Of a DNA stretch of 64,000 nucleotides, positions 12,357 to 14,700 are shown one piece after another; within the stretch, counting starts at the first letter, position 1, and each line of letters opens with the position of its first letter. Source of the DNA: Romanomermis culicivorax (lineage: Eukaryota > Nematoda > Enoplea > Mermithida > Mermithidae); contig CAWUHX010000143.1 of assembly GCA_963922205.1 (NCBI GenBank), positions 806,001-870,000 of the forward strand. The letters run 5' to 3'. A model generated the notes under the pieces. It saw only the letters and a list, made by a program, of their open reading frames with translations, was not told the origin of the DNA and did no database searches. Position numbers and translations under genes: made by a program.

Positions 12357-12506
12357 ATGTGTGAACACTTACAAACCACGTTTGTACAGTTGTCTTTGAT
12401 AATAAAAATTGACCATAGTAACATCACTGTTTCTGAGGGTGAGTTTGTCAGCACCGGCAGCTCAGTATCAATTTTGTTGTCTCTCAAGAAGCCGACATCC
12501 ACTTGA
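12357..12506 (+). CDS. possible N-terminal piece of the Env-like protein in another frame
   Basis: An ATG at 12357 opens a 49-codon frame ending in TGA near 12506. It is hydrophobic near its start (FVQLSLIIKI), has the sequon NIT, and then a strand-like serine/valine-rich segment of the kind seen in ectodomains. The main Env-like frame takes over close to where this one stops, with the frame changing by one base. This may be the missing N-terminus separated by a small indel, or it may be joined by splicing; the evidence is compositional only. Confidence 0.35.
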   Translation: MCEHLQTTFVQLSLIIKIDHSNITVSEGEFVSTGSSVSILLSLKKPTST

Positions 12507-14700
12507 GTTACCGCAGCGTGTAGAGTGTAAACCACAGCAATCTTCATGGAGCCCACGGCGCATGAACGTTACGGTGTATGTTCCTAGCTCAGACCCGATT
12601 ACAACCACAGCGTGGAAATGCACATTGCGCACCCGCAAAGTCTGCACCAACACTGGTTTCTTCGGCTCTAGGGGCATCACTGCAGACGTTATTACCACTC
12701 AGCACTTAGCGCCTGCGGCCTGCACGCTAGCACATCGCACTAAAATGTTTGGCTCACAAAAACTTGTCGGCATTCGCCCTGGCTTTTATAGTACAAACCA
12801 AACATTGGAAGTGATGTACGAATGGTGCTGCAGCGATGTCTGCAAGACAGTGACTAACCTCTTCATTGAGGAGGGACAAATCACTTCGTGGGATGGCACT
12901 ACAGCCCTAAGCACCTTAGGCGATGTAGGTGGATGCAGTCCCACTGCAGGTCAGTGCACTACTCTAGACGGGGTCATTGTCTGGCCTGCACAAAACTTCA
13001 GGGCGTGGTGTCATTATCACCCCAAGGGAAATTACACTGCAGCCATGTCAGGGAACCACGTCATCATCAATGATCTACAGGTTGCCCTCAAGATCCCGGG
13101 AAACTCCCGCGTCTTCCAACTGTGCCCAAAACTACATTCCACCACAGTCCGGACGGATCAGGGTCTTCTCCTACGCATCCATGGGAGATACAATTTGACC
13201 CAAAACTTGTTCAAGCTGGCAAAGGACACACGTCCCGATCCTGTCAATGCCAAACTGAACTATCTGGCTCAGCAGATCAAGGAGTCGGAAATTAACGGTT
13301 TCCGGTTCACGTGGCTTGAGCTCTGCTCTCACGCTCAAGGCTATCTTGATCTGACTTGGCAGTTGCTTCGCTTCGATCCTACATTGGGTGCCCGGGCATT
13401 CCTCCAGAGGAATGACCTGACCGCGGAATTCACAGGCGATGCACTGACAATATGGCCGTGTCAGAAGGTCAACGCCACCTACGTCTACCACTTGTACCGG
13501 GTGGGAAACGCCTGCCACAAGTACTTACCTGTACAGGTCGGCGGCACCATCTATTTCGCCACCCCCGGTGGTCCAGATCTCATTAAATCTAGCCCAATTG
13601 TGCCGTGTCATCACCACTTTACAGGGATTTTCCGAAATCGCTCGGGCTGGTTTACTGAGTCTGGCATGGTCCATGTGAGCCACATCTCACTGGAACTCTT
13701 CTGGAAGCAGCGTTTCAACATCACTCACTTTGATGCACCAGCGCTCTTCCATGACCAGTTGGCGATGACCCCTTCAAACTTTGCCTTCTTTAAACAGAAC
13801 GTTTACAAGACTGAGCAAATTGAAGCGGTACTAAACGGGCTGGTAAACTTTATGGCTGGTGTATCCCTGCAACCAGACGCCATCTACCAGGCTTTTGCAG
13901 GGGTAGGAACCGACATCAAGGCCTCCCTGGAAGGTGTCGGTTTGGCAGCAAACCATGTGATTACTGGTCAACAACACACCCTAGTCCAGGGCTTGCATGC
14001 TGTCCTGAGCGGGCTGGTTCAGTTGATCTTTAACACCCTAATTACCCTGACAGTGCTGGTTGGTGTCCGATACCTAGCCCATCTAGGTGAATCTTATTAT
14101 CTCAGCTACCCTCTGCAGAACAAACAGGTCCGGTTTGTTAGCCGTTTCTCCCCGTTGGGTCTTTACCGCAAAGTCCAATGCTGGATTGGTTTTCACTACG
14201 TGCAAAACGACATGCCGCCCCAGCTCGACAGAATCACACCGTGTTTCGTCATGCTGCTGGATACCAAGGAAACTCCTGCTTTCCTTGACACGGGTTGCCC
14301 CCGCACTATCATTAGCCAACGTCTTCACAAGGCATTGGCTAAAGAAAGTCCGAAGGCGGTCATGGCGTTCCAGCAACATCACGACTTTAACCCATTGATG
14401 AGCATCAGTGGTAAAGCCGTTCATACCATCCTTTCGGGACCATATGAAATCATGTTGCCCGGAAACCGCCAGCGGAACACATGGATCGATATACATCTCC
14501 ATGTGTGCAAGACTACGTCAGCCTTCTGGGCACCTGTTGACCTTATACTCGGACTGGACTTTCTCGAACAGTTCACGAACATTATGTTTGACTACCAACA
14601 TAATGTTTGTCGGCTGGACGCGGTAGAATTGCCCCTCCTGCTGACCACGCCAGAGATTGACCAGATCGACCCCTGGTGGGAGAACACACGTTCTCTATAA
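12406..14700 (+). CDS. Env-like membrane glycoprotein fused to a retropepsin
   Basis: The frame is open from 12406 to the TAA ending at 14700; the first ATG in frame is 12562 (residue 52 if counted from 12409). Residues 52-530 look like an ectodomain: about twenty cysteines, including a WCC motif at 139-141, and seven N-glycosylation sequons at residues 53, 130, 208, 262, 355, 410 and 437. Residues about 534-556 form one hydrophobic membrane span. After it comes a linker and, at about 610-735, an aspartic protease with FLDTGC (active site DTG at 627-629) and ILGLDFL near its end. The fusion-protein class is not clear; a class III (chuvirus-like) or phlebovirus-Gc-like origin are both possible. 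A signal peptide is not obvious in this frame; sequence just upstream in another frame may supply the N-terminus. Position between gag and pol is atypical, since Env normally follows pol. Confidence 0.7.
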   Translation, partial: KLTIVTSLFLRVSLSAPAAQYQFCCLSRSRHPLELPQRVECKPQQSSWSPRRMNVTVYVPSSDPITTTAWKCTLRTRKVCTNTGFFGSRGITADVITTQHLAPAACTLAHRTKMFGSQKLVGIRPGFYSTNQTLEVMYEWCCSDVCKTVTNLFIEEGQITSWDGTTALSTLGDVGGCSPTAGQCTTLDGVIVWPAQNFRAWCHYHPKGNYTAAMSGNHVIINDLQVALKIPGNSRVFQLCPKLHSTTVRTDQGLLLRIHGRYNLTQNLFKLAKDTRPDPVNAKLNYLAQQIKESEINGFRFTWLELCSHAQGYLDLTWQLLRFDPTLGARAFLQRNDLTAEFTGDALTIWPCQKVNATYVYHLYRVGNACHKYLPVQVGGTIYFATPGGPDLIKSSPIVPCHHHFTGIFRNRSGWFTESGMVHVSHISLELFWKQRFNITHFDAPALFHDQLAMTPSNFAFFKQNVYKTEQIEAVLNGLVNFMAGVSLQPDAIYQAFAGVGTDIKASLEGVGLAANHVITGQQHTLVQGLHAVLSGLVQLIFNTLITLTVLVGVRYLAHLGESYYLSYPLQNKQVRFVSRFSPLGLYRKVQCWIGFHYVQNDMPPQLDRITPCFVMLLDTKETPAFLDTGCPRTIISQRLHKALAKESPKAVMAFQQHHDFNPLMSISGKAVHTILSGPYEIMLPGNRQRNTWIDIHLHVCKTTSAFWAPVDLILGLDFLEQFTNIMFDYQHNVCRLDAVELPLLLTTPEIDQIDPWWENTRSL
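14236..14613 (+). other. retropepsin domain 1 (on the Env-like ORF)
   Basis: The domain lies on the presumed cytoplasmic side of the membrane span. It has the active-site triplet DTG in AFLDTGCPRTIIS, a central strand region with SISGKAV, and the closing DLILGLDFLEQF motif followed by a hydrophobic strand, all in normal order and spacing for a single-copy retropepsin that dimerises. Confidence 0.8.

Follow-up and report, generated by a model that had tools for sequence, protein, structure and literature searches.

In the genome of the mermithid nematode Romanomermis culicivorax, the window analysed here (the whole stretch of 64,000 nucleotides at positions 806,001 to 870,000 of contig CAWUHX010000143.1, assembly GCA_963922205.1) carries an envelope-bearing Ty3-type element with long terminal repeats (LTRs), whose architecture is unusual and strongly supported, with its Env glycoprotein lying between Gag and the protease (PR) of Pol. 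The Gag-Env-Pol order and its conservation are close to certain, and we consider it probable, judging from sequence comparisons, that the window holds a damaged copy of an old Ty3/gypsy-type lineage in which a class III-type viral glycoprotein came to stand between Gag and PR and was kept within one Gag-Env-Pol polyprotein. It was a first-pass annotation of the window, made from its letters alone, that proposed the large frame at 12406-14700 as an Env-like glycoprotein which an LTR element of about 16.5 kb carries between gag and pol. Both the placement and the length held up, given that Pfam locates the Gag capsid upstream and PR, reverse transcriptase (RT), RNase H (RH) and integrase (IN) downstream, and that the LTR boundaries together with the target-site duplication CTAC delimit an element of 16,469 bp.

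We suggest keeping in mind that the textbook order is gag-pol-env with a spliced env message, that Env stands at the end in retroviruses, and that envelope capture is the route by which retrotransposons become viruses. A conserved gag-env-pol order, found in a lineage of several families with numerous copies still open, would thus be another route to an enveloped retroelement, and this layout predicts an internal signal sequence, a membrane-tethered Pol and a protease-dependent release.

Conservation of the Gag-Env-Pol order

The order was followed through the same 359-Mb assembly from which the window comes. A DNA search for copies of the window element, in which the best 40 of 1132 candidates were scored, returned at least 39 further copies at 95-96% identity, and a search with the Pfam family PF24664, which recognizes the Env frame, exceeded the cutoff in all of the 68 genome places scored (the best 68 of 2320 candidates). 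Thirty loci were excised, and these make up five families besides that of the window, 28-62% identical to each other in the compared pieces; in all 30, the protease lies directly behind the PF24664 domain, which rules out that other copies carry Env after pol. In 12 longer stretches, chosen to span six families, RT is downstream of Env in every case, the integrase core follows RT in 11 (the exception being L049), and PR was found between Env and RT by BLAST in 10, with L050 and L051 missed and L050 showing a protease match under the Pfam cutoff. With the window Gag as query, the Gag capsid was found upstream of Env in 9 of these 12 stretches, and in L049 and L050 the frames upstream match Gag proteins from other families (with best E values of 2.3e-124 and 8.6e-17, respectively; L051 was left out of this comparison). 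A nested insertion into one element is ruled out as well, since the order is common to the six mapped families.

Sampling by RNase H, independent of Env, gave the same picture. The best 150 of 6119 candidates were scored, and nine places of 1.5 kb each, predicted from the RNase H positions, were checked for Env only, leaving Gag out. Env was present at eight of the nine, comprising all four places chosen for their long frames, where by arithmetic it is always in the RNase H frame, and four of the five places with frames of 542-1347 codons. The Envs of L058 and L059 are about 30-36% identical to the Envs compared. The position that the first-pass annotation had called new is therefore kept both in the window family and in its relatives, and the other copies it had asked for carry the open reading frame (ORF) wherever examined, save at the anchor L061 (one of nine), and carry it after pol in none.

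Relatives were also found in protein collections (sources ENA, NCBI and JGI; about 8000 candidates scored per query). The window ORF retrieved P0001 and P0002, a piece of L042 retrieved P0001, P0004, P0005 and P0006, and the Env alignment only P0002. Three of these relatives repeat the order in one frame, namely P0004 with Env-PR-RT-RH, P0005 with Env-PR-RT and P0006 with Env-PR-RT-RH-IN, and P0001 joins Gag (best E 1.5e-14 by BLAST; Pfam named PF24664 alone) and Env in one frame. A scan of IMG/VR with the Env alignment gave 50 pattern matches, with no relative confirmed among them.

As an observation apart, Env or RNase H matches recur at a fixed spacing (8365, about 7455 and 7308 bases) at G000:C180:404-17640, C293:389502-404723 and C77:997679-1012606, as if these were head-to-tail arrays of elements.

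Identity of the glycoprotein

The large frame that the first-pass annotation described is real. It has 764 residues and 22 cysteines, of which 17 lie before residue 560, as do all seven N-X-S/T sequons, and it has one strong C-terminal hydrophobic span; the chance of 764 open codons is about 2e-15 by a mononucleotide estimate. Its description as a frame with a single hydrophobic segment was right for the strong span and incomplete for the rest, given that a signal-like N-terminal stretch also precedes the ectodomain, exceeding the threshold in all 12 other copies and being weaker, under the threshold, in the window copy. The membrane span behind the ectodomain is present in the window and in 11 of the 12 other copies, the exception being L049, whose frame breaks.

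The viral type of this glycoprotein, also part of the original proposal, is supported by several matches. Against Pfam, the window ORF reaches 48.3 bits with Monjiviricetes_fusion (PF24664; cutoff 27), the Env of L050 reaches 70.5 bits, and P0001, P0002 and P0004-P0006 are above the cutoff too; side matches under the Pfam cutoff are a weak one to Borna G in the window ORF and others to herpesvirus glycoprotein B (gB) in the relatives L050 and P0002. A profile of six Env sequences (the window, four other families and P0002), in which 16 cysteine columns are invariant, was compared with the PDB, and its four best matches (E 0.0034-0.031) are three chains of Envelope glycoprotein B and, aligned over the stretch shared with these, one chain named ORF8; the next matches are ribosomal proteins with E of at least 0.7. 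The window ORF singly, used without the profile, gave nothing in the PDB up to E 1. Because these single profile matches, weak as they are, are mutually consistent, the Env domain is likely a class III-type viral glycoprotein of the chuvirus/bornavirus/gB-like kind. A class I or F-type Env was considered and rejected, given that Pfam returned no such match and gB-type matches instead. A simple furin-type pattern found no site in the ectodomain of the window copy, nor in that of 11 of the 12 others, and the sole match sits near the N-terminus in one degraded copy.

The statement that the frame lacks Pol-type motifs stands for the Env part only, since the last 170 or so residues of the ORF are probably retropepsin-like rather than Env, with an LDTG motif. 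In the window family, this region behind the span, here named PR1, keeps LDTG and LILG in all four aligned copies; its profile aligns with that of the usual Pol protease, PR2, with E 2.5e-4 and a probability of 43% in hhalign, a PDB search points to DDI1 proteases (E 0.0022), and the Pfam protease match stays under the cutoff. BLAST did not find PR1 in ten mapped stretches of the other five families. PR1 is thus a probable extra retropepsin of the window family, located between the span and the usual protease. The active-site motif of PR2 itself differs by family, being DCG in L042 (5724-6125), DSG in L044 (6009-6383) and DTG in L048 and the window.

Selection and shared descent

Ratios of nonsynonymous to synonymous substitution (dN/dS) were taken as means between copies by the Nei-Gojobori method, skipping stops and leaving out families D and E. 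In the window family (28 pairs from 8 copies), these ratios were 0.24 for Env, 0.21 for PR1, 0.22 for PR2 and 0.12 for a piece of RT, compared with 0.45 in the linker and 0.69 upstream of Env, the latter value being disturbed by insertions and deletions. Env gave 0.13 in family A (45 pairs) and 0.19 in family B (15 pairs); the family B protease value of 0.57 includes a broken copy and was not used. Purifying selection acts on Env in three of the families (window, A and B), and in the window family Env is constrained about as strongly as the proteases.

Trees of Env and RT, with seven members each, both contain the clade (A,B) with a support of 0.999 and the clade ((A,B),P0004) with supports of 0.900 and 0.893, respectively, and place family E differently. 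Env and RT identities correlate at 0.80 over 21 pairs. Env and RT are, then, largely of shared descent, and since the two trees agree on these shared clades, Env seems to have been captured before these elements diverged, their Env identities going down to about 35%.

Frame continuity and damage in the window copy

Most directly, the single frame is seen in intact relatives. From the Gag capsid to the integrase core, L042, L043 and L048 are free of stops over 2573, 2578 and 2486 codons, respectively, taking in Gag, Env, PR, RT, RH and IN. One stop-free frame spans both Gag capsid and Env in five of the 12 mapped copies, namely these three together with L044, open from the capsid to RNase H, and L052, which belongs to the family of the window and is open from the Gag capsid through Env into RT; L045 is open from before Env through the integrase core. 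In the RNase H sample, the surrounding frame reaches 2400 codons or more for 35 of the 150 scored matches and measures 2480-2486 codons for 17, and Env continues into PR in one stop-free frame in 15 of the 30 excised loci.

The window copy itself is damaged, with the capsid frame and the next Gag frame out of register (the latter, 11254-12306, being in the frame of Env) and with stops at 12304-12405. The stop at 14698-14700, at which the ORF ends, is absent from all seven other copies compared. Within the window family, four of eight copies are open upstream of Env as far as the stretch examined reaches, two of these four, L002 and L008, stay open from there through PR2, and the breaks differ between copies. 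The ends of the 12406-14700 ORF are therefore accidents of the window copy, and the domain itself is not.

Proposed expression and its alternatives

No in-frame methionine occurs within 70 codons before the ectodomain in both family C copies and in two of three family A copies, and, given also that intact relatives run from Gag through Env into Pol without a stop, one polyprotein is the simplest reading. We lean, by a modest degree, to a single polyprotein that would cross the membrane twice, with Gag in the cytosol, Env in the lumen and Pol again in the cytosol, so that Env and Pol would reach the particle together without a separate Env message, and with a second protease that may have evolved in one family to separate Env and Pol, perhaps in partnership with the usual protease. 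The ribosome would make Gag first, in the cytosol; the internal signal sequence would then open translocation and the cysteine-rich ectodomain would enter the endoplasmic reticulum, until the C-terminal span halted translocation and left PR-RT-RH-IN on the cytosolic side. Release of Gag would fall to signal peptidase, cutting on the lumenal side, and that of Pol to the retropepsin or retropepsins that follow the span, cutting on the cytosolic side; Env would be left anchored in the membrane. A comparable layout is found in the structural polyproteins of flaviviruses and alphaviruses, with a capsid followed by an internal signal and a membrane glycoprotein; these viruses are unrelated to the element described here and the likeness is one of layout only. 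From the sequences, we infer single translation, topology, cleavage and a fusion function, and the idea, already present in the first-pass annotation, that Env here may be made without need of a spliced message is plausible.

Several observations weigh against a conserved, singly translated Gag-Env-Pol frame. The Env-PR frame is broken, within the stretch examined, in the other 15 of the 30 loci, and in seven of the 12 mapped copies a stop-free frame joining capsid and Env is lacking or the window query missed the capsid; we take the broken frames as decay because the breaks differ between copies, and a family-specific signal is also possible. In L050 (family E), one in-frame stop (L050:3494-3496), a matter of readthrough or damage, separates the Gag frame from Env-PR-RT, and in P0001 the Env tail is followed by a stop. 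All three mapped copies of the window family (window, L052 and L053) have their integrase core at +1 relative to Env, with the frame change falling in different domains among them (in the window, at 17277-18005), so that the single frame from Gag to IN is demonstrated for families A and B only. An in-frame methionine does occur 25-31 codons before the ectodomain in L052 and L053 and in the family E copies, so internal or spliced starts are possible there. Moreover, a 1:1:1 output of Gag, Env and Pol would be unusual for a particle-forming element and would need some other control. On the side of conservation and descent, the RNase H anchor L061 has no Env at its predicted place, family C gives an Env dN/dS of 0.49 (3 pairs of near-identical copies), and the pairing of the window with family C, supported at 0.984 in the Env tree, has a support of 0.267 in the RT tree.

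The alternative to be taken most seriously, although we think it unlikely, is that a spliced subgenomic RNA lacking Gag serves for Env, with its start supplied by an upstream exon or by a short in-frame methionine, and that the long frame persists only on account of translation from the genomic RNA as well. Spliced RNA is the source of Env in insect endogenous retroviruses, in some of them via an exon within gag (PMC12992720), and the methionines of L052, L053 and the family E copies would offer the start. However, with Env and PR-Pol in one stop-free frame in 15 of the 30 loci, a spliced Env would still be joined to Pol; in addition, the methionine is at no common place across all families, and 17 of the 150 RNase H matches lie in frames of near-uniform length (2480-2486 codons).

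Less probable still, and in our view rather doubtful, is a captured glycoprotein that is no longer fusogenic and works as a membrane anchor or assembly scaffold tethering Gag and Pol. The in-frame fusion of Env to Pol would suit such a role, as would the furin-type pattern lacking in nearly all ectodomains, but class III fusion proteins need not be cleaved, and the invariant cysteines, the sequons, the signal-like stretch and the span are all retained in an Env under purifying selection. That the ORF is an artefact, either a chance frame or an unrelated insertion in one damaged element, is a possibility we consider practically negligible. The stops and frame breaks of the window copy might suggest it, but the further copies at 95-96% identity, the six mapped families with more divergent ones besides, and the database relatives all speak against it, and a chance ORF is ruled out by copies, selection and relatives together. 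The Gag-Env-Pol polyprotein thus remains our preferred reading.

Comparison with known systems

The insect endogenous retroviruses or errantiviruses, such as gypsy and ZAM, are, like the window element, Ty3/gypsy-type LTR elements with an envelope-type gene. Their Env is, however, F-type (baculovirus-like), encoded by a third ORF and spliced (PMC12992720), whereas here it is gB/chuvirus-like, located between Gag and Pol and in one frame with both in intact relatives. An errantivirus has its F-type Env after pol; here Env precedes PR, and Pfam gave no F-type match in the window element, in a search that did not extend to the region between IN and the 3' LTR, where frames reach 155 codons.

Capture of a glycoprotein of the broad class III/chuvirus type has been described for Anakin, a mosquito BEL/Pao element with a chuvirus glycoprotein (PMC7642597). 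Anakin is a Pao element, whereas the lineage described here has a Ty3-type RT, and for the window element a BEL/Pao assignment is not supported, with a Ty3-type capsid by Pfam and an RT nearest to Ty3 among the PDB chains, in a comparison that included no BEL/Pao reference. A 2023 study reported Gypsy fragments beside chuvirus-type glycoproteins but saw no clear sign that Gypsy or Copia had captured them (PMC10084718). The lokiretroviruses are likewise LTR retroelements whose Env resembles Mononegavirales fusion proteins, but they are sister to canonical retroviruses and have a dual RNase H (PMC9040795, which also treats Odin), in contrast with an RT closest to Ty3 among the PDB chains here; Pfam lists one RNase H place in the window element, this being a general scan and not a search aimed at a dual RNase H. 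Most Troyka elements have Gag-Pol in a single frame (PMC12440569), like the intact relatives described here with their one open frame from Gag to IN, but Troyka has no envelope, whereas here a whole unit of signal, ectodomain and span stands between Gag and PR.

Among further reports, rotifer elements have an additional ORF3 (PMC5408684), Cer1 is treated in PMC10309623, Retand in PMC11963269, and PMC10714607 concerns a Ty1 transgene. In the accessible parts of the literature searched, which took in few subscription papers and preprints, no account was found of an LTR element whose Env stands between gag and pol.

The element in the window and its surroundings

The features of the element are collected in Table 1. 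Its two LTRs are 96-97% identical over two aligned blocks, have TG...CA ends and are flanked on both sides by CTAC; LTRs with such ends, a short target-site duplication and the Pol order PR-RT-RH-IN with a Ty3-type RT place it in the Metaviridae (Ty3/gypsy). Among PDB chains, the best match of the window RT is Ty3 RT (E 9.2e-91).

Table 1. Features of the LTR element in the window (positions of the window; E values from Pfam).
Feature	Position	Strand	Basis or remark
LTR element, 16,469 bp	5290-21758	+	Ty3/gypsy-type
Target-site duplication CTAC, 5' side	5286-5289	.	
5' LTR, 1401 bp, TGTCACG...CGTGACA	5290-6690	+	
Candidate primer-binding site, TGG... directly after LTR	6691-6702	+	By position only
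Leader, 3.6 kb	6691-10265	+	Stop-to-stop frames all of at most 122 codons
Gag frame with Ty3-type capsid	10266-11513	+	Pfam, PF19259 at residues 103-259, E 5.6e-9
Second Gag frame, zinc-knuckle-like Cys/His motifs	11254-12306	+	By eye; no match in Pfam
Env ORF, 764 aa	12406-14700	+	Between Gag capsid and PR-RT-RH-IN
Signal-peptide-like hydrophobic stretch	12406-12459	+	Hydropathy scan, alignment
Glycoprotein ectodomain	12460-14010	+	PF24664 at ORF residues 280-417 (13243-13656)
Membrane span, best hydrophobic 19-mer	14011-14067	+	Hydropathy scan
PR1, probable extra retropepsin-like domain	14242-14625	+	LDTG at 14284-14295, LILGLDF at 14542-14562
Stop codon of the window copy	14698-14700	+	
Pol protease PR2, DTG	15244-15513	+	Pfam, PF13975, E 2.9e-7
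Reverse transcriptase	16219-16701	+	Pfam, PF00078, E 3.2e-35
RNase H	16963-17277	+	Pfam, PF17917, E 1.1e-35
Integrase zinc-binding domain	17722-17898	+	Pfam, PF17921, E 3.2e-20
Integrase core	18005-18229	+	Pfam, PF00665, E 5.4e-9; frame differs from RT (window copy)
3' LTR, 1650 bp	20109-21758	+	About 239 bp extra compared with the 5' LTR
Target-site duplication CTAC, 3' side	21759-21762	.	

Within the leader, which is unusually long, a 39-bp tandem repeat of about three copies lies at 6911-7035. To the right of the element, at 22390-24749 and on both strands, there are RT-like frames (RYVDDTF) together with a GIY-YIG-type tail, in copies that are partly repeated, a combination that we take to resemble Penelope-like elements. 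Lastly, there is a mitochondrial COX1-like stretch (L009:1501-2850), which is readable with TGA as Trp and AGR as Ser. Its AAA codons occupy positions at which Lys is the common residue, in keeping with the general invertebrate code and not with that of flatworms, and a flatworm host was rejected on this ground. The stretch is located on a 1-Mb contig and is possibly a nuclear copy.

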